64,000 bases of DNA from the NCBI RefSeq assembly GCF_026151205.1, contig NC_087083.1:9235460-9299459 (forward strand), in the 5' to 3' direction. Shown piece by piece: positions 8,252 through 59,610 of this stretch (positions are counted from its first letter, which is position 1; every line of letters begins with the position of its first letter). The position numbers were made by a program, and so were the translations under genes. The notes under the pieces were generated by a model. It was given only the letters and a program-made list of their open reading frames with translations, did no database searches and had not been told where the DNA came from. Source of the DNA: Bolinopsis microptera (lineage: Eukaryota; Ctenophora; Tentaculata; Lobata; Bolinopsidae).

Positions 8252-10268
8252 TTCTTTCTTAGTTGTGCATATGTTAATTGGTTCCTAAACTTTCTTAGTT
8301 GTGCATATGGTAATTGGTTCCTAAACTTTCTTAGTTATGCATATGTTAATTGGTTCCTAAACTTTCTTAGTTGTGCATATGTTAATTGGTTCCTAAACTT
8401 TCTTAGTTGTGCATATTTTAATTGGTTCCTAAACTTTCTTAGTTGTGCATATGTTAATTGGTTCCTAAACTTTCTTAGTTGTGCATATGTTAATTGGTTC
8501 CTAAACTATCTTAGTTGTGCATATGTTAATTTGTTCCTAAACTTTCTTAGTTGTGCATATGTTAATTGGTTCCTAAACTTTCTTAGTTGTGCATATGTTA
8601 ATTGGTCCCTAAACTGTCTTAGTTGTGCATATGTTAATTGGTTCCTAAACTGTCTTAGTTGTGCGTATGTTAATTGGTTCCTAAACTTTCTTAGTTGTGC
8701 GTATGTTAATTGGTTCCTAAACTTTCTTAGTTGTGCGTATGTTAATTGGTTCCTAAACTTTCTTAGTTGTGCATATGTTAATTGGTTCCTAAACTGTCTT
8801 AGTTGTGCATATGTTAATTGGTTCCTAAACTTTTTTAGTTGTGCATATGTTAATTTGTTCCTAAACTTTCTTAGTTGTGCATATGTTAATTGGTTCCTAA
8901 ACTTTCTTAGTTGTGCATATGTTAATTGGTTCCTAAACTTTCTTAGTTGTGCATATGTTAATTGGTTCCTAAACTTTCTTAGTTGTGCATATGTTAATTG
9001 GTTCCTAAACTTTCTTAGTTGTGCATATGTTAATTGGTTCCTAAACTTTCTTAGTTGTGCATATGTTAATTGGTTCCTAAACTTTCTTAGTTGTGCATAT
9101 GTTAATTGGTTCCTAAACTTTCTTAGTTGTGCATATGTTAATTGGTTCCTAAACTTTCTTAGCTGTGCATATGTTAATTTGTTCCTAAACTTTCTTAGTT
9201 GTGCATATGTTAATTGGTTCCTAAACTTTCTTAGTTGTGCATATGTTAATTGGTTCCTAAACTGTCTTAGTTGTGCATATGTTAATTGGTTCCTAAACTT
9301 TTTTAGTTGTGCATATGTTAATTGGTTCCTAAACTTTCTTAGTTGTGCATATGTTAATTGGTTCCTAAACTTTCTTAGTTGTGCATATGTTAATTGGTTC
9401 CTAAACTTTCTTAGTTGTGCATATGTTAATTGGTTCCTAAACTTTCTTAGTTGTGCATATGTTAATTGGTTCCTAAACTTTCTTAGTTGTGCATATGTTA
9501 ATTGGTTCCTAAACTTTCTTAGTTGTGCATATGTTAATTGGTTCCTAAACTTTCTTAGTTGTGCATATGTTAATTGGTTCCTAAACTTTCTTAGTTGTGC
9601 ATATGTTAATTGGTTCCTAAACTTTCTTAGTTGTGCATATGTTAATTGGTTCCTAAACTTTCTTAGCTGTGCATATGTTAATTTGTTCCTAAACTTTCTT
9701 AGTTGTGCATATGTTAATTGGTTCCTAAACTTTCTTAGTTGTGCATATGTTAATTGGTTCCTAAACTTTCTTAGTTGTGCATATGTTAATTGGTTCCTAA
9801 ACTTTCTTAGTTGTGCATATGTTAATTGGTTCCTAAACTTTCTTAGTTGTGCATATGTTAATTGGTTCCTAAACTTTCTTAGTTTTGCATATGTTAATTG
9901 GTTCCTAAACTTTCTTAGTTGTGCATATGTTAATTGGTTCCTAAACTTTCTTAGTTGTGCATATGTTAATTGGTTCCTAAACTGTCTTAGTTGTGCATAT
10001 GTTAATTGGTTCCTAAACTTTCTTAGTTGTGCATATGTTAATTGGTTCCTAAACTTTCTTAGTTGTGCATATGTTAATTTGTTCCTAAACTTTCTTAGTT
10101 GTGCATATGTTAATTGGTTCCTAAACTTTCTTAGTTGTGCATATGTTAATTGGTTCCTAAACTGTCTTAGTTGTGCATATGTTAATTGGTTCCTAAACTT
10201 TTTTAGTTGTGCATATGTTAATTGGTTCCTAAACTTTCTTAATTGTGCATATGTTAATTAGTTCCTAA
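8252..10268. repeat. 36-bp minisatellite, about 56 copies
   Basis: The unit is 36 bp, beginning TTCTTAGTTGTGCATATG and ending GGTTCCTAAAC, repeated about 56 times with few substitutions. Because 36 is a multiple of 3, one plus-strand frame stays open for 677 codons and reads a 12-residue peptide over and over. Variant units recur in the same order: a TTGTTCC unit, then a GTCTTAG unit, then a TTTTTAG unit, near 9175-9300 and again near 10075-10205. This indicates block duplication of several units. No exon signals or codon bias suggest that the frame is translated. Confidence 0.95.
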
Positions 10269-10327
10269 ATGTCAAAAATATCAAATAACGGAGTAGTTCG
10301 CTGTTTATTAGTCTCATGATTGAAATA

Positions 10328-11074: not shown

Positions 11075-14000
11075 TTAAACATCAGATATGTCTTTGGTGC
11101 GTTTACCCGGAGTCTGTTTACTTTCTTCGGCAATACCCTGGAAGTTTTTACATGCCCTTCGAGCCATCTCCATATTATTCGGTTTATTTGAAGGGCCTGG
11201 GAGCTCCTCTGCTGTGATGCAACCAGCATTTGGTACTTTTTCATCATTATCTACTTTTTTTAAGTTAAGCGATGTAAGTGTTGCCCAAGATTTTCCAGAT
11301 CGTGACACACTTTTCACACTAGCAGAGACTTTTGTTGTCAAGGTGTTGTCGTACAGCAGGGGGTTTATCACTGAATTGATTGGCAGCACCAAAATTGAAA
11401 ACAGAGCATACCATGGGCTGGCGTCTATAACACCAATAGTGTGCAGAGCACACGTACCAATAAAAGGTATCCAACAGCAAAAGTCAGTGAAGATGATGAT
11501 TGCTACTTTGCGGTTCATTTTCCGGTTTCTGTGCCTGACCATAGTGTTTGATTTGTTCTTTGTAAGACTTTTGGAAGATCTGGTTGATGTCACAGCAATA
11601 ACAATGTATGACAGTGATATCACCATGAAGCAAACGCAGTTGATCATCAATATAGCCCAAACATACCGTTTTTGCGGATCATCAGCTCCAACGAAGTATT
11701 TAAAAAGGCAGACACCGTCGTTGCCATAGAAACCGGCTTCTGTATGAGTAAGTCCACCATAATTCGACGTAAACATACTGTTCATTAGATCGATTATCAC
11801 TTTCCAAGAAAGATCCCGATCTTTCATTCTCCCATAGTAAGCCTTAAGCACACTTTTGTGTTTATTTTTGTCAGGAAAGCCAGCAAAAAGCGGAATATTA
11901 GTGCTGTATGATAAGCCATTCACAAAGTAGTCACCCAAGGAAGGGTGGAGCGGAATCATTGCTATTGCAAAAGATGCAATAATAACTGTGAGGATGATGA
12001 CAATGTTTTTGAGCACGCCAATCTTTGACAAGTGACCACCCAATTTCATTGCATTCTTGATTCCGTACATTCTAGCAATGCTCAGTATAGTCATCGAGAA
12101 GAGAGAGAACTGGGAACCAACAGTGCTGACAACACCTAGCACCGAGCAAGATGTGCTTGTCAACCAGGCCTTTTGAGTTTGGCAATACTGGTCACCCTTG
12201 ACATGATCAACAACAGAAATTGTTAGCAGGTATCCTCCGACTAGGAAATCCCCCAGGCTTATAAGCATGATGAGGAGTTTATTGAGCAATGACATAGCTG
12301 TAGAACACTTTTTAAAGGCAGTTATGCTTTGAATCAAAACTACACAGTTTAGAATGACTGCCAAGATTCCAATCGCCCATGAAACCCCCTTAAGAATTTT
12401 ATCTTCGATAATGTTTTTGCCACAGCGTTCATTACACTCATCAGAAAGGTCCATGCAGTCAAATACTCCATCACACTGCTGCGTCATTGCGATCAGGCTA
12501 GCTTTACTATCTTTACATCGAAAATGATTCGTGCACAATATTTCATCACTTCCATCTCCACAGTCATCAACTAGGTCACAGACTTTGTCAAAGGTCACAC
12601 AACGATTGTTTTCACATACGAATATATCACTGCTGTACGATTCTTCAGTGTTTATCAAAAATGTCAGTTGATCATTATCGACTACCGTATAAACTCGATC
12701 GGGAAACTGTCCCGGACAGGAATCATGACTGACTGGCTTTACCAGTGGACATTTGGCATCATTACTGCATTTCCCTTCACAACTCATGTAAATGTACAGT
12801 TCTCCATGCAAATATTCGCAGTTGAATATACTTTTGGGCAGAAATAACTTTTTTCTTTCCGTCAACCCAAAAACATTCCCCTTTGGATAGTTAAAATTCC
12901 TTGGATTACATTTTGAGGCGAGCTTTTCCAATGTCGTTAGTCCTTTAAGACAATAAGATATTTGGACGGTATCTGTTGATGACATCGTAGCATGCATTCC
13001 ATGAACATCAGGCTTGTCTCGCGATAGTTTGCATACAGCATTTTCATTTCCACATGTATCTACTCCGTCACAGAATTCATCCATTCCGATGAACTTTTTG
13101 TCTCCATGTAAGCAGATGTAGTCATCTGTACAAGATTTTATATCGCTATGGGTCACAAAACGAACAGTTTCGCCCATTCCACAAGTTGGCCATTCGTTCA
13201 GTTCGTCTTCCCCATCTTTACAATCTTTTACGCCATCTTTTAACCAGGCAAGTGGTATTTTCAAATCTTTGTCACCAACTCGTCGACGACAAGTATCCTC
13301 AGTGAGTAGCGAGCAGATGATGTTTTCTTCATCACTTTCATCATAACAGTCTGAAGTATTGTCACACATTTTATGTTTGTGTATATTGCTACATGTGGAT
13401 GAAAGATCAACGCACACATTTTCTATTCCATCACTACATAGGCTCATATCTTTTATTCCATGACACAACATTTGTTCCGAAACGGTCGCCTGATATCCAT
13501 TGACTCTGCAAGATAAACCAACTTTGGAGGGGTCGGAACAGTTTGTTTGATCTAGATAGTCTTCACAATATGGACTGTATGTTTGATTTAACCAGAAAGC
13601 TTTGTCAATAGCTGCTTGTGTATACTTGAAGGGGCTGCATCTGGTGTAGTTCAGAATAGGGACTGGGAGTGGGGATTCATCTTCCAGCCCGATGACATCC
13701 GAAATCGAGTATGGTTTGAGAAAGTGATTGCAACTATGAATGGTAAGATTAGTTTCAAATATTTCCCTAAATGCGCCAAAAGTTGTCATATTCTTTGTCA
13801 ATGAAGCGGTATTCTGATGATCCTCCAGTCCCACCAGATTAGGAGGACAATAGTGATCTCCGCAGTTTATTCCATAGCGGTATCCATTGCATTCTAATTC
13901 ATCCTCACAGTATTCTATGTCACAATATCCATCACATATTTTTGATCGAGTTAAATTTGTCCCACTGTATTGCGTGCAGTTAGCTTCGTCCAAGTCAGTG

Positions 14001-14322
14001 TTAACACACTCGCTCTCCTTGTTGCACGAGTAAGAAATGTCAGCCTTGTATCCACTGGTGAATATTCCATTCTTCTCTTGGCAGATATAGTACCCGCAAA
14101 AGAAGTTGTCATCGGACTTCAGCTCTTCATTGTGTCCTGCACCACATGTTTGATAGAACTTAGGATCATTTTCACACAACTCACTAAACTTACTCCATCC
14201 AGGCAAAGCTGCTTCGATACTGTAAAACGTCTCAGACTCCAGACATTGGAAGTATTTATTTCCATTGTAGTCTGTGCAGATGTTTTTCAAGAAGCTGTTG
14301 TGTTGTGAAATCTTACAGGTAT
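11075..14322 (-). CDS. Receptor exon 11: LDLa-rich ectodomain plus rhodopsin-type 7TM
   Basis: A single 3.25-kb exon follows a CTTTCCAG acceptor and encodes 1082 aa to the stop at 11075. The first ~630 residues hold dozens of cysteines and many N-glycosylation sites, with LDLa-like cores such as CDNTSDCYDESDEENIIC, CDLVDDCGDGSDEILC and CDGVFDCMDLSDEC, the last two directly before the membrane. The helices follow: TM1 near GVSWAIGILAVILNCVV, TM2 with LISLGDFLVGG, TM3 with SCSVLGVVSTVGSQFSLF, where ARMYG replaces DRY, and TM7 with NSVINPLLY (NPxxY type). A cysteine at the start of TM3 and one in a long second extracellular loop (GVCLFKYF) could form the usual disulfide. An intronless 7TM next to LDLa repeats suggests that the core receptor came from an older unit to which the upstream modules were added. 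Confidence 0.9.
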
Positions 14323-17300
14323 CTGGAAAGTTCGTGTGCATTCAAATAAATTAAGGTGTCAAAAGAAACGATTTAAAAGTTTTTTAAAATATTTTTAATC
14401 GAATTTTTGTGGAATATAGATACCTTTATTTAGCCTTAAAGGTCGAAATTTGAATATGCTTCAATGCCTACCTTTGTTTGAAAAGCAAGTCAGGAATACG
14501 TCTTGATGATGATTGCAAACAGATGCGTTCAGGGTTTTATAAGCACATTCTCTGAACGTTTCGTTATCTTCGTCACAAACCACTTCAGACAACATTGTTT
14601 CGTAATGTTTTTGTACGTTCCAATTTTGACCTATTGTCCAGTTTTCAGCTCCTCTGTATCCCATTTCTTGACAAATCAGATTAGCTGATTTGTCATTGAA
14701 GTTCTGTCCGCAAACTACTCCAGCCTGAGTGTTGAAACATTAACCTGGTAACCTGGTAACCTGGTAACCCGGTAACCAGGTAACCAGGTAACCAAGTTAC
14801 CAGGCAGACTAGCTGATTTGTCATTGACGTTCTGTCCACAAACTACTCCTGACTGAGTTGAAAAAATAAAATATCAGCTGTTATCAATAAATTACTGTTT
14901 GAAGTGCTTATATTAGGTTCGGGCGTTGACGAATTCAAAATTTAATTTTACAATACAGCTATTTTTATAATAGTCCCTTTTAATGGGAAAATTTTCAGAT
15001 TATCCTTCACCGTTGGTTGGCAAACATATATTTTAGGCAATGTTAAACTTGTGAAGTACATTTTAGTATTGGTGGAAATTATTAGATCTATAGTCATTCA
15101 GCAACTTACCTTGGAGTATCCAGCTCGGTTTGCAACAAGAAGACCGGCATTTTGTCCTAATCTTATATTTTTATTGTGCTTATCTATTAAGCTGAATAGA
15201 AATCCCCCTGATTGAAGATTTTCCATTATTGTTGAAAATAATGTACTGAACGTTTAAACGTCAAAAAATCTAACTATCTTATTAAATACTGATTATAACT
15301 CACAATCAAGGGATTATATGGAATTTCGATTAATTTGAAGAAACGGTTGAGTTTATTTATTTTAGACAAAATATAGCAAAGGTGCTTTAAATTAATGCAA
15401 TACAAAATAAAAACAAAATTACCTCCGTTTGTCATGTAACTTCTATTTGTAAGAATATGCATGCACTTTCCATAGTATTTTATCATCATCCCTTTGTATT
15501 TTCGTAATCTATTCAGGTCGACCTTAAATTTCTGCTCTATCTCTTTTCTGTTGATAGTCAGTACATAATACTTTTCAGTTACCAGCACATATATCTCGTT
15601 TTCTCTCGTTAAATCAGGCAAGTTTGCTTCAAATCCTTCTGCCCATTGATATTTGCTTATTTTCGAAGATACAATTAGCTTTCTGTATCTGTTTTTATTG
15701 TGAAGTCGAAAGTCGAGATGATACATGCTGTAGTCATCGTTGTCCACAAGGTTAAATGTGAATCCACATCCTTTTCCATAATCTCCAGTGAATAGAGCAT
15801 GAATGTAGAAGGTCGAGGAAACTTCCAACACCATATCAGTTGTAAAGATTTGCTTTCTATGAATGTCCGAATAGTTGTATTCCTTTAATTCAAAATTGGC
15901 AAACTTTTCGCGGCGCTCTGAAATCATTCAAAAGTATTAAATTAAGAGGCCAAAATATGAATATAAGATGTATCAAATAACACATATTATCACACTTTCG
16001 AGCCAAATTTGGCAGGAAAGCAGAATTGATATTACATGCCCCGATGGGGAGCACTGGCTCTCACCCGGGGGCATGAAATATCAATCAGTTGCTCAGAGAG
16101 ATCCCGACATTCCCATAGGAACAAGGAGCCCACACTCAACAACTGTTCTACTACTGTGAGGTACTGATTTAAATAAAGATTTAAATCAACAACCTGAAGT
16201 AGTCTATGACCGTAAATGCAATGATCAGATTAACTTTCCAGTATTAGGAAAAATATGTAAATATAGTTAGTTTTTAAAACATTTCCTTGCGTTTGAGATG
16301 TGTTAAGCGAAATAAAATTTTTTGTTGTAATACTTTTTCAAGCTGTTGCTTTTTTACTGCACTTCATAGTTCAAAGCCTAATTAGGCTTCGGATGATGAA
16401 ACAAAGTAAAAACTCCTTGGCTTGTACGAGCTTTAAGTGACTTAAGATTACTGAAAACGAGATCAAAGTTTACAAGCAGACTTGAAAGTTGCACAAAGTT
16501 TTGGTACTTGTCAGCGATACAATCAATCAGGCTAATTGATTTCCTTAATCGCTTACTTGAAATTAAAAAGGAAGTGTCAGAACAAACTACAGTCGCCCTC
16601 ACAAAAAATAGTAAACACTAAACGATGTTTGATTAATTCGAACGAAGAAAACACACAAAACAAGAATCTATTAAGTCAAGAGTTACTTTCATAAACAATA
16701 CTAAAGAGTACGGATGTCTGCTCTTGATATTAAAACAATCTAGAGTTGTATTGAAGAGATACATTATATTAGTACGGCTGTTCTGATAATTTCTAGTGAA
16801 GCAAATAATGGCAAGATGAATATAAGCAGACTATTATAATACTCGATAAAATTCAATAAAAGTCAATGATTACAAGTTCCAGTGATAAATCATTCTGAAA
16901 TAACAGACAATCAAGACGGACGATAATATTGTTGATATATGTATTAGGGCTTGTAGTACGAGTACAACATGAACAGTTGAAAATTTGGACTTATGAATAG
17001 ACAATCATGGCGCCACAGCCCAATTCAAATATAACAACCAGGAAATACTATCACCTTATCGCAGATTAGTATTACATGATAAGGACTAGGATGTAATCAA
17101 CACTAAAACAGATGTTCTATACATTATACATCTTCAGTTTTAATGACTCAAAATATATCTAATAGAAATAAAGTATAAGAATCACCTCACATCGATTGAT
17201 ATGCAGGAAATAATTTATAATTAAAATACGCGCTCGTGGTGGAATATTCTAGAATGCAATAAGTACAAGACCCATAGGCGTGAATATATTGATATTCGAT

Positions 17301-20300
17301 GCACTACGTACCAATAGAAAGCAAATTGGGCGCGGCATACAGCATTCACTGTGTCATAAATGTGGGAACGTGAGATCCTAATTTTACATATTGTATCTTC
17401 GATATCTGAAATACTAACTCATCGAGATCTATATAATATATAAATATATAGCTTAGACATTATAAACATAAATAAGTTCGGCATGTCTAGTTTGCTTTGG
17501 TGAGATTTATAACTAACGTTTGATCAAATTCTGCTTCTTATGAATAGACAATTATGGCGCCACAGCCCAATTCAAATATAACAACCAGGAAATACTATCA
17601 CCTTATCGCAGATTAGTATTACATGATAAGGACTAGGATGTAATCAACACTAAAACAGATGTTCTATACATTATACATCTTCAGTTTTAATGACTCAAAA
17701 TATATCTAATAGAAATAAAGTATAAGAATCACCTCACATCGATTGATATGCAGGAAATAATTTATAATTAAAATACGCGCTCGTGGTGGAATATTCTAGA
17801 ATGCAATAAGTACAAGACCCATAGGCGTGAATATATTGATATTCGATGCACTACGTACCAATAGAAAGCAAATTGGGCGCGGCATACAGCATTCACTGTG
17901 TCATAAATGTGGGAACGTGAGATCCTAATTTTACATATTGTATCTTCGATATCTGAAATACTAACTCATCGAGATCTATATAATATATAAATATATAGCT
18001 TAGACATTATAAACATAAATAAGTTCGGCATGTCTAGTTTGCTTTGGTGAGATTTATAACTAACGTTTGATCAAATTCTGCTTCTTATGAATAGACAATT
18101 ATGGCGCCACAGCCCAATTCAAATATAACAACCAGGAAATACTATCACCTTATCGCAGATTAGTATTACATGATAAGGACTAGGATGTAATCAACACTAA
18201 AACAGATGTTCTATACATTATACATCTTCAGTTTTAATGACTCAAAATATATCTAATAGAAATAAAGTGTAAGAATCACCTCACATCGATTGATATGCAC
18301 GAAATAATTTATGATTAAAATACGCGCTCGTGGTGGAATATTCTAGAATGCAATAAGTACAAGACCCATAGGCGTGAATATATTGATATTCGATGCACTA
18401 CGTACCAATTATAGAAAGCAAATTGGGCGCGGCATACAGCATTCACTGTGTCATAAATGTGGGAACGTGAGATCCTAATTTTACGTATTGTATCTTCGAT
18501 ATCTGAAATACTAACTCATCGAGAGCTATAAGTATATATAGCTTGGAAATTATAAACATAAATAAGTTCGACATGTCTAGTTTGCTTTGGTGAGATTTAT
18601 AACTAACGTTTGATCAAATTCTGCTTCTTATGAATAGACAATCATGGCGCCACAGCCCAATTCAAATATAACAACCAGGAAATACTATCACCTTATCGCA
18701 GATTAGTATTACATGATAAGGACTAGGATGTAATCAACACTAAAACAGCTGTTCTATACATTATACATCTTCAGTTTTATGACTCAAAATATATCTAATA
18801 GAAATAAAGTATAAGAATCACCTCACATCGATTGATATGCAGGAAATAATTTATGATTAAAATACGCGCTCGTGGTGGAATATTCTAGAATGCAATAAGT
18901 ACAAGACCCATAGGCGTGAATATATTGATATTCGATGCACTACGTACCAATTATAGAAAGCAAATTGGGCGCGGCATACAGCATTCACTGTGTCATAAAT
19001 GTGGGAACGTGAGATCCTAATTTTACATATTGTATCTTCGATATCTGAAATACTAACTCATCAAGAGCTATATATAGCTTGGAAATTATAAACATAAATA
19101 AGTTCGACACGTCTAGTTTGCTTTGGTGAGATTTATAAGTTCTAACGTTTGATCAAATTCTGCTTTCCCGGCCAAATTTGGCTCCAAAGAAAGTGTGATA
19201 AAACATTAATCACATGCCTTCTCATGCGATATCAACATTTTCAAAACTCGGCAAGCCTCGTGATTGAAAATGTCGATATAACCCTCGGCAAGCCTCGGGA
19301 AATATCGAAACTTTCGCTAACTCGGCAAGCCTCGTGGGCGAAAGTTTTGATATCGCATGAGAAGGCATGTGATAAATGTATAATATGTTATATCAAATAT
19401 TCATCTGACAGGTAGAATATTTGATATATTTATCTAATTTTATGTAATTCTTCTATATGAAATACTTTTATATTAAAGTAAATATTAACCAGTGTACCAA
19501 AGGCAAAAGCTGGTGCACAAACAACAAGTATCAAAGGTTTTTATTTTGAATATGATCATACCCTGTGAAGTTTTACAATTCTGTCTATATAGATGTCAAA
19601 CAGAGGCACATATTAGGTGCGGTAAAAAAATCGAAATTATGCGGTACCGCACCCGACTATAAAGGTAAAATGTGCGGTAAGTTGCGGTAAATTTTTACCA
19701 ATTATGCGGCAAATGTGCGGCGATTTTTTCGAAATTTGTGCGGGAATTGTGCAGTTTTCTTTTGCATTTTCTCAAGGACTTTGGAAATTCTAAACGTATA
19801 ACCGCCGCTCTTATCAAAAATAGGTCTGTTTATGTGTTACTGAGGGTGTAGTTCTTTACTAAGACCATGATTGAACCTATATTGAGATTCAGTTATCTGA
19901 GAACAGTGACGTGGTGAAGTTACGAATGATAACTGATAAACTATAATCAAAGTATGGTAACGACGAGGGTTTCATAACGGCCTGGGTCACGGTCCCGAAA
20001 GGGCCTGGGTCACGGTCCGAAAGGGCCTGGATCACGGTCCCGAAAGGGCCTGGGTAACGGTCCCGAAAGGGCCTGGGTCACGGTCCCAAAAGGGCCTGGG
20101 TAACGGTCCCGAAAGGGCCTGGGTCACGGTCCCGAAAGGGCCTGGGTCAGGGTCCCGAAAGGGCCTGTGTCACGTGGTAACTGGGTCACGTGGCCTAGGC
20201 ACGAGTTCCAAAAGGGCCTGGGTCACGGTCCCGAAAGGGCCTGGGTCAGGGTCCCGAAAGGGCCTGTGTCACGAGGTAACTGGGTCACGTGGCCTAGGTA

Positions 20301-23300
20301 TGAGTTCCAAAAGGGCCTGGGTCACGGTCCCGAAAGGGCCTGAATCACGGTCCTAAAAGGGCCTGGGTCAGGGTCCCGAAAGGGCCTGAGTCACGGTCCT
20401 AAAAGGGCCTGGGTCAGGGTCCCGAAAGGGCCTGAGACACGGTCCTAAAAGGGCCCGACTATAACATATTTTGGTTTTTACACTCGAAAATCTTAACGCG
20501 AAAATTTCAAAATTATGCGAAATCACGCGGAAAATGCTAGATTATGCGGAAATATGCAGAAAATTACAAAATGTGCGGACATGTGCGGAAAACAATAAAT
20601 TATGCGGACATGTGCGGAAAACGGTAAATTGTGCGATCCCGCACCCATCGCACCTAATATGTGCCTCTGATGTCAAAAGGTATTCATGGTATTATTTTAG
20701 TATTACCTTTTGTAATTTGGATGCATGTTGTCGACGAATCTATTTTGTGACTGTAAACAGCTGACTCCGTGCATTTAGCAGTGGTATTTGATTCTGAATC
20801 AAGTCTGTATCCTACATCACAGAATATCGTGACTGAAACTCCTGCGGGGACTTCACCACCCGGACTTAGAAATCCATGTTCCACTGAGAGTGGAGGACAA
20901 TACACTGAAAGTGAAATTTAAAAATGTTAGAGTATGAGTTTTAAGCACTTGAAGGAATCAAATAATCGGCATGTTTTGACCAGGTATTTGACAAACATTG
21001 CAAACTGGAGGTACCAAAAGTGACAAAAAGAACTCCCAAACTTAACCCATGGATTACAGACAGTATCATCCAGTCTGTAGAAAGAAAGCATGAACTGCGT
21101 AAGGAGTGGTCTGACACCGTTACTAATAAGAACCCTGGTGGTAATATCTTGCTCTACCAAGTATTTAGTGATTATCGTAGGATGCTTAAAGCTATCATTA
21201 AAGCTGCCAAACGTTGGCATTACTGTAACGAAATCCTAAACAACTGTGAAAATAGCAAGAAAACCTGGCAAATTATTAACGAACTCAGGGGCAAAAAGAA
21301 GAGGCAAACCAAGCCCCCATTTATCATTGACAACCAAAGAATAGTTGATAGAAGAGCTATTGCTAATGGATTCAATACTTGGTTTGTCTCTATTGCACCA
21401 AAGCTGAATGAGACACTGAATAATCTATCTTATGGTCTGCCTATATTACCCATGAAAACTTTCTATGACTTCCTGAACCCAAGAAATGAAAAAAATATTA
21501 GGCTAGAAGATTGCTCCTCGAACGAAATATTGAAAATCATAAGCGAGTTCGAAAATGGTAAAGCCAGTGACATTCCCATAAGTGTAGTAAAAAAGTCATC
21601 TCATGTAATTGCACCTGTATTATCGAATTACTTCAATATCCTTATGACCAAAGGTATATTTCCAGATGTCCTGAAGACTGGTAAAATAACTCCTGTATAT
21701 AAGAAAGGTAACCCAGAAGAAATCGAGAACTACCGTCCTATCTCCACACTGTCCGTCTTCGGTAAGATCTTTGAAAAGCTCATATATTCTAGAATATACG
21801 GATTTGTTAGCTCCCAGGGAGTTATATCGAAGACACAGTTTGAATTTAGGAAATCTCACTCAACATCTCATGCAGTCAATTACTCTGTAAATTTGATTAC
21901 GAAATCTCTTAAACTTAAGAATCATGTTTTAGGAATATTCATTGACCTAAGCAAAGCTTTTGACACTATCGACCATTCAACACTTCTTATAAAATTAGAG
22001 GGATGTGGAGTGAGAGGAGTTGCAAATAACCTCATCAAAAGCTACTTGACAAACAGGCAACAATACACCGAAGTTGTAGGAGAAAAATCAGATACCCTAT
22101 CTATCCAATTTGGTGTCCCACAGGGTTCAATTCTTGGACCTCTCCTATTTCTTCTTTATATGAACGACATCACAAACAATTCTAAACTAGGATCATTTGT
22201 TACCTTTGCTGATGATACCAATATATTTGTTGTCGGCAAAACAAAACGTGAGGCATATGAACGAGGAAATGAGCTTTTGTCATCATTGAAGTCTTATATG
22301 AGAGCGAATAAGTTACATATAAACATGTCCAAGTGCTGCTACATACACTTCAAACCCACCATGGCAGGTTCTAAGTCAGAGACTTTATCACACCCTGAAG
22401 TTGCATTAACTATAGACAACTTTCCAATCAAAAAGGTTTCATCCGCAAAATTTCTGGGTGTTATAATTGACGAGAACCTATCATGGGATGATCACATCAA
22501 AGCACTTAAGCGAACTCTAAATCATTCCACATCCACTTTATGTAGACTTCGCTGCTCCCTTCCAGAATTTCTACACCAACAATTATATTATACCCTGTTC
22601 GAATCACATCTTTCCTACTGTATATCTGTATGGGGTGGGGCAGCGAAACAACGTATAAGCTCATTATTTACTGCTCAGAAGTACTGTCTCAGAGTACTAT
22701 TTGGTGACAGGCTGGCGTACCTTGATAAGTTCAAGACTTGTGCACGTACTAGGCCCATAGGACACCAGAAACTTGACCAAAAATTTTTCATAAAAGAGCA
22801 CACCAAACCGATATTTAAGCATAATAATATTCTATCTATACAAAATCTCTATACATACCACAGTTACCTCGAGCTCTACAAGATAATGAAATTCCGTGCT
22901 CCAATATCCCTACATGAGGGTTACACATGTTCCTCAAGGAAACCCTGTCTTCTAATCTGTCAGGCAGACCCACCTGACAATCACAACACTAGATCAACCA
23001 AAATTTTTAACATTTTAACCCCAAAGTTCAGAATGACTGACTTTACTACTAGTGTAATGTGCTTGCGAGGTAAGTTAAAACGTGCGCTATTAGCTAATCA
23101 ACATAATCACGCCCTGCTTGATTGGACCGTCAAAGATTTTGACTGCACAAATGTTATTGTCCAAACATAACTGGCTGGTCACACACATCTCAATTAAAAT
23201 TACGCTAGGCCACTGTTTTCCAAGTCTTGTCCTGTGAGTAAAGTATGTGTGAGAAAGTTTTAATAAAATCATTGTATATTTATTTTTGAATTTAAAAAAT

Positions 23301-26300
23301 CTAATTTGAGAATGAAGGTTAAAGAAATTTTTAATTAGCACTGTATAGTTTAAGATATTTATAGCTTATTATAACAATTGATACAAAGGCCATAATCTTT
23401 CACCAGCTCTCCAATATCCACCTTGAAGCTGCATTTTATATCCTAAATATAAACTAAATCATGTTTTAGTGTAGACTTTTTGTCACAACAAGACTGCAAC
23501 CTATAGTAACAATTATAAACAGAACCTCTAATGTCTGCTAACAATTTTTCTTCTAGTCCTAATCTGAGCCTTGTCTCTAAAAACTTAACTGAACTAGCGT
23601 TTCGGTGTGTGCAAAAGCTTCCAGGCACGCGCATTCCTTGCCCCGTTAGTTACCTGTCCTTCATAAACCAAACTAGCAGTCAGGACAAAAAGTCATACAC
23701 CAAATGGGCATTATATTTTATGAATTATTTTACATCTTTTTATTCTGTAAAAATGTGCTAAAATTAAATTTCTTGTTTCATTGAAAAATTTCTTGTTTCA
23801 TTGATTGAATAATCGCAAATAATGCAATATAAAGCTATTTGGTGGACGTGAAAATTGAAATGTATATATTATGCTACGAAATATTGTATTTAGTAACAAC
23901 CCCAACCTCCCCAGTCCCTGAACAATATTCAGATCAAATTTATGGGAGAAGTTCTCCCATAAATTTGATCTGAATTATAATTGCGTTCTCCCGGGGAAAC
24001 GCAATTATAATTCTCAAAACAGAACTGTACCTTTTGTGCAAATATTGCAGCTTCTTTTACAGTTCTCTTTCATGTACAGAATGTAATCTCCTGTTGGATG
24101 ATTTATAGTTATCGCATTGGATATAATTTTGAATCATGTGTAAAATGTGTTCCTGTTCCTCCTTGTATTACTACTTAACTTAACACATTTGGATAATTCC
24201 AACAGATTCCCCGAAGAGATATAACCTGAATACAATCAATGTCTTTTTTATTGTGTTTTCTCAGTGTAAAATGGGAAATTATACAAACCTGTGTCACAAT
24301 GCCCCAAAGAAGCCCATTGAATGCAATCAGCAGCATCGTCGTGACAATCACTTTCAACTGAAACGAAAAAAATATTAATTCATATCTTTATTTCAAAATT
24401 TGACTGCACTTAGGATCAAAAGAAGAAAAAAGAAAAAACAATTTTTTGTGAACAACCCCTAAGTGAAGTAACTGCACCCACACGCAACCTTTAAAATTTC
24501 GGAACTGAGAGTATAGACACACGCCACACATGATTTCAGCTATAATATTATGAGTATTTATGATTTAGCTTTAAGATCAAAATACTTACCACTGCATGTA
24601 GGTATATCACAATACTCCCATCGAGGCACAGTTCCCTCAGCATTATAACACCAGGCGCCTGATTCACTGAGGAAAATGATGACACATGTTATAATGAAGA
24701 ATTTATTATGGAACAATGATTATGGAACACTGCCAGATACCAGATATCAGATATTGAAGACTTACCCGTCTGGATTTCTGCAATAGTTCTCTTGCAGTCC
24801 TGAATCAGAGTATCTGAAAATGTTTTTGTAATAAGCTATTGTCCTAAAGTAGGTAGTTTTGTGAATCGTAACTAACAATTTGGATTCTTCCGAGAGCCCT
24901 TTTAGAAACATTTCGAAGAATAAATCTAAATCTGGATTATGCCGTATTGTTGCCGCCTGTGGGTGAGACTAGCTTATACCTGTTGTGCCTTAGAAGCACC
25001 AAGAAAACTTACCTCTCAGCAGTTCTGCTGTGTTTATTAGGTGATTGAGAGTCCCATCTCTGGCAGACGTGTCCTGATACTGTGACAGATACAGTTCCCC
25101 TGTAGTCTGATCCATCCGCTTTACCAACACACTCGTCTGGAGCTGGAGTTAACCCATTTGTTAATCTTTTTAGAAACGTTAATAATGAATAAAAGTAGTT
25201 TCTTGATAAACGATGGCTTGATAGTGAGGTAAATTGGGGTTTACGGTAAATCTGCGTTTGCGGTAAATTGGAGCGCAGTAAATCTGCATTTGCGGTAAAT
25301 TGGAACGAAGTAAATCGGAATTTGTAAACAAGGCCAGGGCGAGGTTAATCGGACATCTGTGAATCGGAGCGCGCGGAGAATGTCGTATATGATCTACAAA
25401 GGCTGTAAGACCTCTGGAGTCGATGCAAACATTTTCAGACCTCTAGTTCATTAAAGGACTAGGAGGGCGTGGCAGCCTCATGATGATTAAAAAACATATT
25501 TTCCAATATCTGGCATTCTGGCTCATTATTGTTTATACGAAGTGGAAAACATACGATGTCAAGTTTAGAAACAATCACTAAGGTATTCTACTCTAAACTT
25601 AAGTTTTAATAATATGCAAAAATATTTTAACTTTATTATCATCACTCGATGGACGATGACGTCATCAAGTTAAGCGTTTTTAAAGCTTGATTGAGTATTT
25701 TTTCCTGTCGGGTCATCCTTTGGGATGTGGAGCTAAGTCTGGTTTGTATACTTAGGGGTTTCTCACATATTACGAAATAAATATTTTGGCAATTTTTAAC
25801 CCCCTCCCCTCCTCAATAATCAACCGTAATCAAGACCCCCCCCCCCCCCCCCCCCCCCCCCTTTTTGCCTTTTTTCTCATTTTTCCCTGGAAACACTTTT
25901 TAGTACGTTTGATGCTACCCTGATCATAATCAGGCGAAATTATTGTTATGATATCCGGCCAAACATCTTTCAAACTACTTTAGTTATCTTAAACAATAAT
26001 CTCAGAATGTGTGTGTGTGTGTGTGTGTTCTGTTTGTGTGTCTGCGTGTAATTTCCGAGCGGCTTCATCAAGAAAACGGTAAAAGTTACGGGGCTGGTTT
26101 TTTCGGTATAGTGCCGACAAAACTACGAGGAAGTCAAATGGTAAAGGGTTTTTAAATCGGTCGGTGGTAAGTGGTTTGATTGATGGTTTTTGTACCACAA
26201 ATGTTACATAAAATGGCTTGAGCAGCTTAATCAAGAAATCGGTAAGAGTTACAGGGCTTGCTCTCTTTCCCATTACTGCATAATATTATGTATCGTTGGT

Positions 26301-28083
26301 ACATATATCATTATTACACTGTCATGGATACTTTAAACTTATTTATAGGGGAGTGAGCGCCTATAGCGGTCTGTTTGAACTGTAGAGATAGTTCATACTT
26401 TCATACTTTTATACGACAATGTAATGCATGTTTTCAAATATGCGGGTGTGGTGCGGAGTTAATAAAGTTTAAGATACTATTGGATACGTGAGGGCACTCC
26501 GAATAGAATTGTTCAGATAATGCGGGTTTTGACTCAGTAGGTAAATTTAAATACTCCTACCCTTTTTAACTGCGGCAGTGAAATCCCGGCCGAAGGCCGG
26601 GTTACACTAGTAGTAGTTATATACCTTATCGGACCTTATTTGGACGGACATTACTTGAACGGACATAATTATGAACGGACATTAATATGAACGCTAGAAG
26701 GCAATCAAAACCATCAAAAATCCGAATTTTTTTCATCTTTTTTAAAACTTTTTTTAAATTTTAGCAAATAATTTTCAAACCCATTTTTCATACAGTAAGC
26801 AAAAAAAGCAGTTTTTAATCAGTAAACATGTTAAAATATGTGTACATGATTATTGTCTTCTATCACATATCATATTCATCAAATGGGTTTTCGTGCATTA
26901 AATATTCCATGCTTAAAGCATCAGTAATACCCGCTTTTTGGAAACCTTTTTTTTAATCAAACTACCTCGGTCCTACATTTCAGTGTAAACTTTTATAACT
27001 ATAAGTATAAGCAATTCGGCGTGAAGTGGTTTTATTTAAGACAACTTTAGGTTAACCTTAACATCACGTGGAGCTTTCAATTTCCCAACACTTATCTGTT
27101 TCATTACCTCCCCTGAGTAATATGAACTATAATAACGTCGGACAATGTTCTTGGCAACACGATTTAACGTAATATCTAGAGGCTGAAATGTGAAACAAGT
27201 GTGTGATGTTGGCGGGGACTAGCTCATGAACTATGTTGTTGAGTGCCATAATTTCGTTGAATTTTTCCGTCCCTTGAAGTGATCCTTGAAAACATCATAT
27301 ACTAGAAAAGTTTTCTGTGCCTCCGGCAGACCAAGGAGAACTTTTCGTCGTTAACATACGGCACTATATGATGTTCTCGATAAAATGTATTGTTGTAGAT
27401 TCATTTGCCCAATGTTTTTCGTTAAAAATAACCTCAAAGTCTTTCGGAAAGAAATGTAGATCAAGATATTGATAATGCCATAATGTGACATTTACAATTT
27501 AGATCGTTAAAATTTTACAATAACTAGTTTTCATTGATTCAACGATATAGTTTAGTTTAATGATACTGATAGCTATTGAAATTGACTGAAATTAAAAGTT
27601 GTCATATTCTGGACAAAAAGTTCGAAATGGAAACATTTTCGAAAAAAATTCAACGGACTTTAACTTGGACGGACATTAAATGAACGGACTTTATTTGAAC
27701 GGACATTAAGATGAACGCTAGGGCCTCCAGCGTTCAAGTAATGTCCGTCCAAATAAGGTTCGATAAGGTAGTCGGATATCTGATCAATTTCTAAATTTTA
27801 TCACTATCACTATCAGAGTGAAATTGAGTGGAAATTGAATTAAAATATTGTCAAATTGTTATTATTGTAGAAGGTAAAAAAGAACATTTTGATAACTTAA
27901 TCAACGACCAAATGATATCCAATAAGGTATATTCAATCATAATCGAAGCTGTTCTTATTAATTGATAAATTTTAGTATCAGTATCAATTATGCATAGTCC
28001 ATACCTTTTATTTGTTCAGCATCAGCAGGTCCGATTAACGTCACGAAAACCAAAGCCATCAACACAAGCCTTGGATACATCAT
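11075..28083 (-). CDS. Chimeric multidomain 7TM receptor: kringle, ShKT, sushi, galectin, SRCR, LDLa, GPCR
   Basis: I rebuilt eleven coding exons from splice sites: 28005-28083, 25013-25142, 24766-24813, 24590-24666, 24289-24357, 24031-24090, 20707-20904, 15423-15917, 15110-15207, 14472-14724 and 11075-14322. Every junction has GT-AG ends and matching phase. The sum is 4755 nt, that is 1584 aa plus stop, with no frame break. Predicted order by residue: signal peptide 1-22, kringle about 30-110, ShKT about 113-153, sushi/CCP about 156-218, galectin-like about 225-375, SRCR about 395-500, Cys-rich/LDLa region 503-1132, seven helices about 1147-1496, then an 88-residue cytoplasmic tail. The helical part resembles leucine-rich-repeat and LDLa-bearing receptors of the LGR/GRL101 kind, but no LRR is seen. 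The ligand is unknown; the modules suggest carbohydrate or pathogen-surface recognition. Additional symmetric phase-1 exons could be missing. Transcript data would settle whether this is one gene. Confidence 0.8.
14472..15207 (-). CDS. Receptor exons 9-10: SRCR domain
   Basis: Exon 15110-15207 enters in phase 1 after CAATCAG and ends AAG before GTAAGT. Exon 14472-14724 enters in phase 0 after CACTCAG and leaves in phase 1. Together they read GQNAGLLVANRAGYSK, then AGVVCGQNFNDKSANLICQE, MGYRGAENW, SEVVCDEDN, FRECAY and ending FLTC. This is the scavenger-receptor cysteine-rich fold: GVVCGQ-F-----A-L-C-E-GY, then a WDC-like CDE, EC and a final C. The usual N-terminal strand (RLVGG-type) is present as NIRLGQNAGLLV. 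SRCR domains bind polyanions and microbial surfaces in many animals. Confidence 0.85.
14741..14865. repeat. GGTAACC palindrome beside a duplicated SRCR exon fragment
   Basis: At 14741-14802 the 8-bp word AACCTGGT is repeated and then switches to its complement AACCAGGT, making a near-perfect palindrome of about 60 bp. Immediately after it, 14804-14862 repeats 14683-14736, the 5' part of SRCR exon 10 with its acceptor, with only a few substitutions. The duplicate contains an intact CAACTCAG acceptor but breaks off after about 15 codons, so it is an exon fragment. The receptor intron carries both. Confidence 0.85.
15423..15917 (-). CDS. Receptor exon 8: galectin-like lectin domain
   Basis: A 495-nt symmetric phase-1 exon (acceptor GATTTCAG, donor GTAATT) encodes 165 aa. 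The stretch GCGFTFNLVDNDDYSMYHLD, then FRLHNKNRYRKLIVSS, then QWAEGFEANLPDL, then YVLTINRKEIEQKF follows the galectin strand order (FxxNL, HFNPR, VxNS, WGxEER, FxxxVNG). The H and R of HxNxR (as HLDFR) and the W are present, whereas N-P becomes D-F and the later asparagine is serine. Sugar binding may therefore be altered or lost. A farnesoic-acid O-methyltransferase-like (Methyltransf_FA) beta-sandwich was considered as the alternative. Confidence 0.65.
15987..19201. mobile_element. 3.2-kb TIR element in a receptor intron carrying a satellite array
   Basis: The left end TTATCACACTTTC, then GAGCCAAATTTGGC and GGAAAGCAGAATT, recurs inverted at the right end (to 19201) with a 4-bp insertion, giving about 40 bp of terminal inverted repeat. 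No transposase frame is present. The interior contains four long tandem units (16991-19164) preceded by about 950 bp of non-repetitive AT-rich DNA. It lies between the galectin and sushi exons. The target duplication is unclear. Confidence 0.75.
16991..19164. repeat. Satellite-like tandem array, four units of about 547 bp
   Basis: Units start at 16991, 17538, 18085 and 18628 with TTATGAATAGACAATYATGG and are 547, 547, 543 and about 537 bp long. They are nearly identical; units 3 and 4 share small differences such as CAATTATAGAAAGC and a shortened TATATA tract. Each unit ends TTTGATCAAATTCTGCTTC. No open frame of note is conserved. Confidence 0.95.
19209..19373. mobile_element. MITE, 165 bp, ATCACATGCCTTCTCATGCG ends
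   Basis: The ends form an inverted repeat of about 28 bp that starts ATCACATGCCTTCTCATGCG and includes ATATCAA. Inside, the word CTCGGCAAGCCTCG occurs three times. It sits only 7 bp right of the 3.2-kb element, so the two insertions are adjacent or nested. Confidence 0.8.
19601..20669. mobile_element. Non-autonomous hAT element with 8-bp target duplication
   Basis: The left end CAGAGGCACATATTAGGTGC and its inverse ending at 20669 form a 20-plus-bp terminal inverted repeat. Both ends are flanked by the direct repeat ATGTCAAA (19593-19600 and 20670-20677). An 8-bp target duplication and CAGRGG-type termini are the signature of hAT transposons. No transposase frame remains. Both subterminal regions are packed with ATGTGCGG and GGTAAATT words, and a GC-rich minisatellite fills the centre. 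It lies in the receptor intron before the sushi exon. Confidence 0.9.
19975..20455. repeat. GC-rich minisatellite inside the hAT element
   Basis: About 20 copies of a roughly 23-bp unit starting GGGCCTGGGTCACGG and ending CCCGAAA. Variant units (GTAACGG, CAGGG, TCCTAAAA) occur, and a longer block containing CACGTGGCCTAGG appears twice. Its GC content is much higher than the surrounding DNA. Confidence 0.9.
20707..20904 (-). CDS. Receptor exon 7: sushi/CCP module
   Basis: A 198-nt symmetric phase-1 exon (acceptor TTTCAG, donor GTAATA) encodes one complement-control-protein module. Its four cysteines lie in VYCPPLSVEHGFLSPGG, VSVTIFCDVGYRLD, TAKCTES and TTCIQ, the usual spacing. The tryptophan common before the last cysteine is missing. 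Sushi modules mediate protein-protein contacts in complement and adhesion proteins. Confidence 0.85.
20930..23830 (+). mobile_element. 5'-truncated non-LTR retrotransposon in the receptor intron
   Basis: It holds the reverse-transcriptase frame 21020-23170 and a 3' UTR of about 600 bp. An AATAAA lies near 23261, and there is a duplicated TTTCTTGTTTCATTGA near the 3' end (23770-23810). It lies in antisense to the host receptor. The endonuclease half is missing, as expected for 5' truncation during target-primed reverse transcription. Confidence 0.75.
21020..23170 (+). CDS. Non-LTR retrotransposon reverse transcriptase (partial ORF2)
   Basis: An open frame of 716 codons. The N-terminal part contains the linker typical between endonuclease and RT (NSKKTWQIINELRGKKK). 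RT motifs follow in order: YRPISTLSVFGKIFEKLIY, IDLSKAFDTIDHSTLL, FGVPQGSILGPLLFLLY, the catalytic FADDTNIF and VSSAKFLGVIIDENLSWDDH. The C-terminal region ends with SYCISVWGG and later sequence. It belongs to the CR1/L2/Jockey side of non-LTR elements; I cannot fix the clade. The whole frame is intact, so the copy is young, but without the endonuclease domain it cannot move by itself. The start given is the first codon of the open frame, not a proven initiator. Confidence 0.85.
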   Translation: MTKRTPKLNPWITDSIIQSVERKHELRKEWSDTVTNKNPGGNILLYQVFSDYRRMLKAIIKAAKRWHYCNEILNNCENSKKTWQIINELRGKKKRQTKPPFIIDNQRIVDRRAIANGFNTWFVSIAPKLNETLNNLSYGLPILPMKTFYDFLNPRNEKNIRLEDCSSNEILKIISEFENGKASDIPISVVKKSSHVIAPVLSNYFNILMTKGIFPDVLKTGKITPVYKKGNPEEIENYRPISTLSVFGKIFEKLIYSRIYGFVSSQGVISKTQFEFRKSHSTSHAVNYSVNLITKSLKLKNHVLGIFIDLSKAFDTIDHSTLLIKLEGCGVRGVANNLIKSYLTNRQQYTEVVGEKSDTLSIQFGVPQGSILGPLLFLLYMNDITNNSKLGSFVTFADDTNIFVVGKTKREAYERGNELLSSLKSYMRANKLHINMSKCCYIHFKPTMAGSKSETLSHPEVALTIDNFPIKKVSSAKFLGVIIDENLSWDDHIKALKRTLNHSTSTLCRLRCSLPEFLHQQLYYTLFESHLSYCISVWGGAAKQRISSLFTAQKYCLRVLFGDRLAYLDKFKTCARTRPIGHQKLDQKFFIKEHTKPIFKHNNILSIQNLYTYHSYLELYKIMKFRAPISLHEGYTCSSRKPCLLICQADPPDNHNTRSTKIFNILTPKFRMTDFTTSVMCLRGKLKRALLANQHNHALLDWTVKDFDCTNVIVQT
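23928..24012. repeat. Two abutting perfect hairpins
   Basis: Positions 23928-23974 form a palindrome with 23-bp arms (CAGATCAAATTTATGGGAGA and its complement) and a 1-base centre. It is followed directly by 23973-24012, with arms AATTATAATTGCGTT around CTCCCGGGGA. They lie 19 bp from the donor side of ShKT exon 6, so RNA folding could affect that splice site. Confidence 0.8.
24031..24357 (-). CDS. Receptor exons 5-6: ShKT domain
   Basis: Exon 24289-24357 and exon 24031-24090, both symmetric phase 1, join to read SDCHDDAADCIQWASLGHC, then DTGDYILYMKENCKRSC, then NICTK. This is the six-cysteine ShKT pattern (C-x6-C-x2-WA-x2-G-x-C, then C-x3-C-x2-C), about 40 residues. The module is common in secreted and membrane proteins of invertebrates, often beside enzymes or adhesion domains. 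Here it is a receptor module, with no indication of a free peptide. Confidence 0.85.
24590..25142 (-). CDS. Receptor exons 2-4: kringle domain
   Basis: Exons 25013-25142, 24766-24813 and 24590-24666 join in phase and read ECVGKADGSDYRGTVSVTVS, then GHVCQRWDSQSPNKHSR, then LQENYCRNPDG, then ESGAWCYNAEGTVPRWEYC and DIPTC. All six kringle cysteines and the YRG, CQRW, NYCRNPDG and WCY landmarks are present. In the lysine-binding pocket the DxD pair near the fifth cysteine is not obvious, so ligand preference cannot be predicted. The acceptor of exon 2 is a tandem CTCCAGCTCCAG; either use keeps the frame. Confidence 0.9.
25143..25999. other. Intron sequence with poly-C tract
   Basis: Receptor intron 1. 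A run of 26 C lies at 25836-25861. A small cluster of GTAAATYGGAGCG-like words occurs at 25230-25370. No exon is seen. Confidence 0.5.
26000..26610 (+). mobile_element. Candidate non-autonomous Helitron
   Basis: The 3' end shows a perfect 7-bp-arm hairpin (CCCGGCC GAA GGCCGGG, 26585-26601), then 5 bases and CTAG at 26607-26610, followed by T. The 5' end starts with TC at 26000 after A and runs into a GT microsatellite. A TC start, a hairpin about 10 bp before CTRR, and an A/T insertion site define Helitrons. The 611-bp interior has two related GCGGCTTCATCAAGAAA-like blocks. No Rep/helicase is present. The 5' boundary is less certain than the 3' one. Confidence 0.65.
26622..27770. mobile_element. 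1.15-kb TIR element with TTGAACGGACATTA motifs
   Basis: The ends CCTTATCGGACCTTATTTGG (then ACGGACATTACTTGAACG) occur at the left from 26622 and inverted at the right to 27770, about 40 bp with one mismatch. A TA dinucleotide flanks both ends, consistent with a TA target duplication. TGAACGGACATTA-like words are repeated just inside each end. There is no open transposase frame. It lies in receptor intron 1. Confidence 0.85.
28005..28083 (-). CDS. Receptor exon 1: signal peptide
   Basis: The exon starts with two consecutive ATG codons (28083 and 28080), encodes MMYPRLVLMALVFVTLIGPA followed by DAEQIK, and ends at a GTATGG donor in phase 1. The hydrophobic core and small residues before DAEQ indicate a cleaved signal peptide, which fits a receptor with an extracellular N-terminus. 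The linkage to the kringle exons rests on strand, phase and the absence of another start. Confidence 0.75.
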
Positions 28084-28696
28084 GATTCTAAAAAAAAGTA
28101 AAATTGCTTAATCAAGATAAAATAACACAGTTTTATGTTAACACTAAAAGTAAATTACTACACCGTGGTTACAGGCACGTATCAAGAAGGATTTCTATGG
28201 ATTCGTGAACCCCCATTTGATTTATTAAGCTGCAAACTATTAAATAGTATAAAGGTTTAAACAAGGACATAATTATATTTTCTGAGTGCTGACTTACCTA
28301 CGTCAAACTAGTAATTATAAACTCACAAAAGAAGAAAAGACGAACGACCGATTCAATATCCTCATTATTATAATTAACAATATATCAATATATGTATCTT
28401 GATCTTAATGTATTAGCTCGTCACGAACGGAAGTCTATAAAACTGTATGTTCATTGTTCCTTCGGGTAACTAACAATACGTTAAAGAGCCCTATATTTTA
28501 CGTTGTCCAGGTCACTTATATTGGTCACTGAATAGCAGAAAGTAAATTATATGTCAAGTCTTAACTCTGTTAAACGGACGAGAGTGTAATTGCTAAATGT
28601 GGACCAACTATGGGGCTTACTGCGTAGGCTATCAGTAGGCAATCTATATTCTGTGGTTGCACCACGTACTATACTCCAGTAGCAGAGAGGGGTCGA
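28084..28696. other. Presumed promoter region of the receptor gene
   Basis: No reading frame. It must contain the 5' UTR and proximal promoter, but I see no element that I can name with confidence. Confidence 0.35.
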
Positions 28697-28786
28697 GTGT
28701 GCACTCCCTGCTACTGGAGTGTGCACTCCCTGCTACTGGAGTGTGCACTCCCTGCTACTGGAGTGTGCACTCCCTGCTACTGGAGT
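28672..28786. repeat. 22-bp tandem repeat, four copies
   Basis: The unit GTGTGCACTCCCTGCTACTG plus GA is repeated four times from 28697. An inverted piece, ACTCCAGTAGCAG, at 28673-28685 can pair with the TGCTACTGGAGT part of every unit. It lies about 600 bp upstream of the receptor start codon. Confidence 0.9.
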
Positions 28787-28985
28787 ATTAGTCGTGTCCA
28801 TTCAAATAAATCAAGACTTTGCACTAGTAAATAAAACCATGTCTGCAAAAGTAGTCAAACAGTTTTTAAACTGATCAGATAAGGATGTTGTCCCAGCTGT
28901 TTTTACTAAAGTACTAACGACCTTTACTGCTTAATTTACTACTTTACTACCTTACTTCTTTATCTAATACTCCCCTACAAAAAAT

Positions 28986-59569: not shown

Positions 59570-59610
59570 CTAATAACGAACTTCTCCATGACCTTAGTTT
59601 TGTAGGCAAG

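Follow-up and report, generated by a model that had tools for sequence, protein, structure and literature searches.

Organization of the locus

The window, by which we mean the whole 64,000-nucleotide stretch of the Bolinopsis microptera genome that was analysed (C12:9235460-9299459), carries on its minus strand a chain of eleven exons, rebuilt from splice sites and reading frame, with lengths of 79, 130, 48, 77, 69, 60, 198, 495, 98, 253 and 3248 nt. The chain is open and consistent in phase from the ATG at 28083 to the stop at 11075, and its 4755 nt correspond to 1584 codons plus the stop. All ten donors are GT, an AG acceptor precedes each following exon, and exons 2 to 11 are entered in phases 1, 2, 2, 1, 1, 1, 1, 1, 0 and 1. 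The first-pass annotation of this DNA had proposed eleven minus-strand exons with GT-AG borders, consistent phases and 1584 codons, and our reconstruction reproduced it. The start of exon 2 is ambiguous, as acceptors at 25142 (adopted here), 25136 and, for a longer exon, 25283 all give an open frame. Phase 1 is the intron class used in exon shuffling, and all six module borders fall in it, as in an exon-shuffled mosaic with symmetrical phase-1 borders.

As a control for chance, exon 1 was held fixed and exons 2-10 were replaced by random AG/GT-bounded segments of equal lengths from outside the gene. None of 200,000 random chains was open, a rarity that is somewhat overstated because exon 11 was excluded and the freedom among acceptors was ignored. 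The conservation of the exons in a paralogue, copy B (see below), is a stronger test of the exon chain than this control.

Domain composition

All of the following features lie on the minus strand. Exon 1 (28005..28083) holds the start codon and, judged by eye, a likely signal peptide (MMYPRLVLMALVFVTLIGPADAEQIK); it is present in both close paralogues, copies A and B, and its donor is kept in B. A kringle is spread over exons 2 (25013..25142, first part), 3 (24766..24813, middle part) and 4 (24590..24666, last part), placed by the splice chain and by a Pfam match of the joined protein (Kringle, 2.5e-24, residues 35-110). Exons 5 (24289..24357) and 6 (24031..24090) encode the two halves of a ShKT module (ShK, 2.2e-6, residues 115-152, joined protein). 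Exon 7 (20707..20904) encodes a sushi/CCP module, which matched Pfam at 1.7e-5 when the exon was searched alone and was absent from the joined-protein matches at E≤1. The N-terminal part of an SRCR module lies in exon 9 (15110..15207), a homologous piece of which occurs in paralogues on contigs C13 and C7, and the module itself in exon 10 (14472..14724; SRCR, 6.5e-12, residues 418-498, joined protein). Exon 11 (11075..14322), which opens at a phase-1 acceptor, encodes a Cys-rich, LDLa-bearing ectodomain, a seven-transmembrane (7TM) domain (11345..12427), a cytoplasmic tail and the stop. LDLa was matched at 1e-6 in the joined protein, with four stretches at E≤1, and four were also found at E≤5 on the exon 11 ectodomain; the best-scoring Pfam repeat (12533..12628, residues 1068-1099) lies beside the 7TM domain. 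In copy B and the C13 relatives, two LDLa stretches were found at E≤0.1.

The 7TM domain matched the rhodopsin-class (class A) family 7tm_1 at 1.9e-12 (47.6 bits against a cut-off of 30.5), and a sequence search of the PDB gave LHCGR (1.2e-16), TSHR and FSHR as the closest solved structures, followed by RXFP1 (7.1e-12) and LGR4. From these matches, we predict that the heptahelical domain is of the LGR-type class A. No leucine-rich repeat (LRR) family was found by Pfam at E≤1 on the joined protein or at E≤5 on the exon 11 ectodomain, neither GPS/GAIN nor 7tm_2 was present at E≤1 on the joined protein, and an NCBIfam search of the receptor exons gave no match. The kringle, ShKT, sushi, SRCR, LDLa and 7TM parts listed by the first-pass annotation were all recovered by Pfam from the joined protein or its exons. 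Its description of the heptahelical domain as LGR/GRL101-like was borne out for the LGR-type 7TM by the PDB matches, but it does not extend to full membership of the LGRs or of GRL101, which we rejected: multiple LDLa repeats are present, but an LRR ectodomain was not found by Pfam. Assignment to the Adhesion GPCRs was also rejected, as GPS and 7tm_2 were both absent.

In each of the five aligned members, the acidic residue at the site that we take to be the DRY motif is replaced by A or V and the arginine is invariant, giving (A/V)R(M/L/F). What is presumably the NPxxY motif is kept as NPLLY in five of five. Since the acid of the DRY-type motif is replaced, coupling may be unusual.

A divergent galectin-like exon

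Exon 8 (15423..15917) gave no match to Pfam Gal-bind_lectin at E≤5 or E≤10, and no PDB match at E≤1 as a single sequence. Searched as a profile of five homologues, however, the family matched galectin or congerin chains in 53 of 54 PDB hits at E≤10, with weak E-values (best 0.0032). Gal-bind_lectin matches below the cut-off were found in three of the five aligned members (best 0.0016); the C13 and C7 homologues scored 0.0013 and 0.0048, or 18.7 and 16.8 bits against a cut-off of 22.1. Genome-wide, 30 galectin matches exceed the Pfam cut-off, and exon 8 of the window is not among them. Of six residues that we take to be the sugar contacts of galectin-3, H, R and W are kept and two N are changed to D and S; the sixth, E, is ambiguous in the alignment of the window and is not kept in copy B or C13. 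Because the window exon has no Pfam match and yet the family profile matches galectins of the PDB, we call exon 8 a divergent galectin-like domain, as predicted from the sequence profile. The plain label of galectin given to this module earlier therefore needs qualification: homology to galectins is found through the five-member profile, but the domain is divergent, lies under the Pfam cut-off and has partly changed contacts.

Elsewhere in the genome, galectin matches at C1:3477635-3506610 form a lectin cluster with dense F5/8-type galactose-binding matches (C1:3474921-3516374, minus strand).

Paralogues and their differing modules

Two close paralogues were found on contig C5. Copy A (5.673-5.736 Mb) keeps all eleven exons, which are 98-100% identical to those of the window, and its exon 8 is split by a 19.6-kb insertion (C5:5677871-5697474) whose inverted ends are similar and which is accompanied by a 7-bp target duplication. 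Copy A is thus a disrupted copy; we rejected the possibility that it is an assembly duplicate, since it lies on another contig and has insertions of its own. It also holds a stray fragment of the sushi exon (C5:5736121-5736199). Identity to copy A is lower in the flanks (87-93%) than in the gene (99.8%), which might reflect gene conversion or a separate duplication.

Copy B (exons at about 5.990-5.997 Mb) has its signal, ShKT, sushi, galectin-like, SRCR and 7TM exons in collinear order within about 7 kb, and its exon 11 is 93% identical to that of the window. Exons 1 and 5-10 show no gaps in the alignment and have their GT and AG conserved, the acceptor of exon 11 is kept, and all eight shared exons have open frames. 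No match to the kringle, including exon 2, was found in the copy B region, and a second ShKT module (Pfam, 2.5e-6) with phase-1 borders stands at the position of the window's kringle.

More distant relatives carry other combinations. A pair of genes on C13 have a 7TM identity of 70% to the window gene. The first has two three-exon kringles, a galectin-like domain and SRCR before the 7TM exon, with a frame break in exon 11; the second has the galectin-like domain and SRCR before the 7TM exon, and a stop-bearing stretch of about 100 nt inside its galectin-like region may be an intron. The gene at C5:12.24M/12.25M (7TM identity 53%) has a kringle (3.8e-27), an F5/8C galactose-binding domain (3.4e-8) and sushi (9.2e-5). 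The two inner introns of the kringle are placed alike in the window, both C13 kringles and C5:12.24M, and the C13 kringles have their 3' border 12 nt further on, likewise in phase 1. Judging from order and strand, the C13 kringles and the one at C5:12.25M, which lies about 11 kb upstream of the 7TM exon, would belong to the same transcripts as their 7TM domains. The gene at C12:13.76M (7TM identity 53%) has LDLa (7.6e-11), sushi (2.9e-6) and an F5/8C-like domain (8e-6) that, at 26.8 bits, is just under the cut-off of 27.8. At C7:16.55M, SRCR (6.7e-15) stands beside the 7TM exon, and the genome-wide SRCR matches include some upstream of two 7TM loci on C7. Relatives of the window gene share part of its architecture, but module order varies within the family: ShKT replaces the kringle in copy B, and further relatives have other modules.

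Five tandem SRCR matches lie directly upstream of a 7TM locus at C7:16546148-16553989 (plus strand), probably an SRCR-array receptor of the same family. Upstream of the paralogue at C13:2114413, the DNA is a tandem repeat.

One gene or two

The exons might have been wrongly joined from two neighbouring genes, one for a secreted kringle-to-SRCR protein and one for a separate 7TM receptor. Introns 1, 6 and 7 are long (2.9, 3.1 and 4.8 kb) and contain repeats and a reverse-transcriptase frame, and AATAAA words occur in eight of the ten introns, including the last; these features would suit such a misjoining. However, the last intron, between SRCR exon 10 and 7TM exon 11, measures 149 bp, copy B is both collinear and compact, and SRCR and 7TM exons are neighbours in paralogues on C7 and C13 as well. 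Moreover, the 7TM exon opens at a phase-1 acceptor at all seven readable edges (the window, copy B, the two C13 genes, C5:12.25M, C12:13.76M and C7:16.55M), taking the first of two adjacent AGs as the acceptor at C5:12.25M; the sequence compared at an eighth locus (C1:5116996) began inside the 7TM exon and so lacked that edge.

Selection is similar on the two sides of the last intron. Between the window and copy B, dN/dS was 0.324 over the 386 codons of exons 5-10 taken together, against 0.349 in exon 11, so that the pooled module exons are under purifying selection similar to that on the 7TM exon. Within exon 11, the ratio is 0.309 for the ectodomain, 0.237 for the 7TM domain and 0.604 for the tail. 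The sushi exon and SRCR exon 10 give 0.25 and 0.27. The signal exon (0.83) and the galectin-like exon (0.69) have higher ratios, in small samples, and exon 5 shows three non-synonymous and no synonymous changes. Because single exons are small samples, we claim constraint for the pooled module exons and not for the signal exon or for exons 5 and 8 singly.

A separate 7TM gene is unlikely given the collinearity, splice sites and selection of copy B, the phase-1 acceptors and the 149-bp last intron, and with SRCR beside 7TM in the paralogues as well we rejected the two-gene reading as highly improbable. The exons from kringle to 7TM very probably form a single gene, as the sequence comparisons indicate. 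The single transcription unit assumed by the first-pass annotation thus finds strong support in a collinear, splice-conserved paralogue under similar purifying selection.

A large family of 7TM loci

A search of the genome (264.65 Mb in 232 contigs) with the 361-residue 7TM domain matched at least 113 loci on contigs C1-C13 (114 matches, one locus being in two pieces), a lower bound since 113 of 557 first-look candidates were scored. A stop lies inside the 7TM match in eight of the 114. Apart from the window and its four close copies, identity in the 7TM domain is 43-53%, and most of the loci lie in an open frame of roughly 1000-1300 residues, forming a large set of single-exon receptors.

We compared these loci with genome-wide domain matches (150 for SRCR, 98 of 154 for kringle, 48 of 76 for ShK and 84 of 150 for sushi, the remainder being further matches of the same arrays). 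Among the matches listed, SRCR lies within 20 kb upstream on the same strand of at least 5 of the 113 loci, three of which are the window and copies A and B, and a kringle of at least 2; ShK and sushi gave none, in listings that miss domains split by introns and that lack the C13 kringles as well as the ShKT and sushi of the window gene itself. For SRCR, kringle, ShK and sushi, respectively, the listed matches gave 1, 0, 0 and 1 of 113 downstream on that strand and 0, 1, 1 and 1 on the opposite strand. In a comparison of the tables by eye, no galectin match was seen within 20 kb upstream of any 7TM locus on its strand, and half of an F5/8C match, containing a stop, was noted some 8.5 kb upstream of the 7TM locus at C13:5085354. 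With SRCR at 5 and kringle at 2 of the 113 loci among the matches listed, the multi-module form may be a small subfamily. The most economical account is an LGR-like family in which phase-1 recognition modules have been shuffled into some members.

Relation to known receptors

Among the titles and abstract openings listed in searches of the open-access literature, we recognised no class A GPCR that combines kringle, galectin and SRCR. This agrees with the earlier statement that no receptor with this module order was known, but the principle as such has been seen before in a different class of GPCR, since Adhesion GPCRs of amphioxus are described with kringle, somatomedin B, C-type lectin, SRCR and LDLa modules (PMC2246102). 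As in the window gene, recognition modules including kringle and SRCR stand on their N-termini, and domain shuffling was proposed there too. Unlike them, the window receptor is of the rhodopsin/LGR class and has no GPS or 7tm_2 match. Choanoflagellate GPCRs are tabulated with LRR and LDLa in the rhodopsin family and with kringle in the Adhesion family (PMC12716839).

GRL101 and the LGRs of basal metazoans are among the nearest described receptors (PMC4079206). GRL101 and other type C2 LGRs resemble the window receptor in that their LGR-type class A 7TM domain is preceded by several LDLa repeats. However, they have LRRs, whereas in the window receptor no LRR was found and kringle, ShKT, sushi, galectin-like and SRCR modules stand instead; the (A/V)R(M/L/F) at the DRY-type site is a further difference, with GRL101 compared by description and not by sequence. 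The type C1 LGRs RXFP1 and RXFP2 are similar in the 7TM domain and in the possession of LDLa, but in RXFP1 a single N-terminal LDLa is joined to LRRs (PMC4837482), whereas the window receptor has as many as four LDLa stretches, and no LRR was found in it. SRCR proteins of the ctenophore Mnemiopsis also resemble the window receptor in that the legend of the SRCR panel names sushi, LDL and ShKT modules, whereas 7TM is named in the legend of the CTLD panel and not in that of the SRCR panel (PMC11797021). Clades of ctenophore GPCRs are described as having radiated independently (PMC13231562).

Proposed function

A receptor whose modules serve external recognition is, overall, the best explanation of this gene, and we consider it reasonably probable. 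The gene would encode a membrane receptor made up of a signal peptide, kringle, ShKT, sushi, galectin-like and SRCR modules, a Cys-rich LDLa stalk and an LGR-type class A 7TM domain, phase-1 recognition modules having presumably been shuffled in front of a constant LDLa-7TM exon in some members of a large set. Displayed at the cell surface, the N-terminal modules may capture large external ligands, such as glycans or proteins displayed by microbes, by prey or by adjacent cells. Occupancy might then be relayed to the 7TM domain through the LDLa stalk, by analogy with RXFP1, in which LDLa is needed for activation (PMC4837482), and the 7TM domain would signal through G proteins. We infer from this a role in environmental or immune sensing. 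In Mnemiopsis, 12 SRCR genes were reported to change on re-exposure to bacteria, 8 of them upward (PMC11797021).

It is unlikely, though worth weighing, that the protein is instead a receptor for an endogenous peptide hormone, of the relaxin/GRL101 type, whose additional modules would provide no more than spacing, adhesion or clearance. Its 7TM domain is indeed nearest to those of glycoprotein-hormone and relaxin receptors, several LDLa repeats are found in GRL101 as well (PMC4079206), and a starfish receptor resembling GRL101 has been proposed to bind insulin-like peptides or to serve chemosensation (PMC6267866). Against this, the LRR, which is the ligand-binding part of LGRs, was not found, and at least 113 related loci with changing lectin-type modules fit external recognition better than they fit one hormone. 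A chemosensory rather than immune receptor, in which shuffled modules would give breadth of contact cues from prey, mucus or gametes, seems slightly less likely again: Mnemiopsis has independently radiated GPCR clades and changes in GPCR copy number that were discussed as sensory (PMC13231562), but the modules in question are of kinds usual in defence or adhesion proteins. We regard an allorecognition receptor as very doubtful, even with a multi-copy receptor and recently duplicated copies. Unrelated individuals of Mnemiopsis reportedly fuse readily, which argues against strong allorecognition.

External recognition remains the reading that we prefer, and a broader form of it can be put forward tentatively, as a possibility short of an even chance. 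The gene may belong to a germline-encoded, exon-shuffled repertoire of LGR-type GPCRs, with a constant LDLa-7TM exon at more than 100 loci behind interchangeable phase-1 modules (kringle, ShKT, sushi, galectin-like, F5/8C and SRCR). If so, a single signalling core would read many kinds of external surface, and the repertoire would be an independent class A counterpart to the extensive sets of innate receptors in sponges and sea urchins. The ligands of class A GPCRs are usually small or soluble. In a class A receptor that bears several recognition modules in series, scavenger and lectin-type recognition would be tied directly to G-protein signalling, and the modular outer part suggests a route by which a single signalling core could serve a wide variety of sensors. 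The idea is open to testing with paralogues in which a single module has been exchanged.

Repeats and mobile elements

Intron 6 contains an open reverse-transcriptase frame of 734 residues (20966-23167, plus strand) that matched a group II reverse-transcriptase model at 4.8e-16, below the cut-off; our reading is that it is of the non-LTR type. This stretch is present in copy A at 99.4% identity and absent from copy B. The start of the SRCR exon is partly duplicated at 14741-14869 (minus strand; coordinate transferred from copy A), with an 8-bp tandem repeat (TAACCAGG) between this second copy and exon 10. Upstream of the gene, similarity stops at the same base (window position 28972) in copies A and B, and the stretch 28347-28972 is present twice in tandem in copy B. 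Immediately downstream, an array at 8254-10269 repeats a 36-bp unit 56 times, and the array is also present beside copy A. Another reverse-transcriptase frame, at 59557-61663 (plus strand), has a 566-bp tandem duplication that repeats a stretch of its protein.
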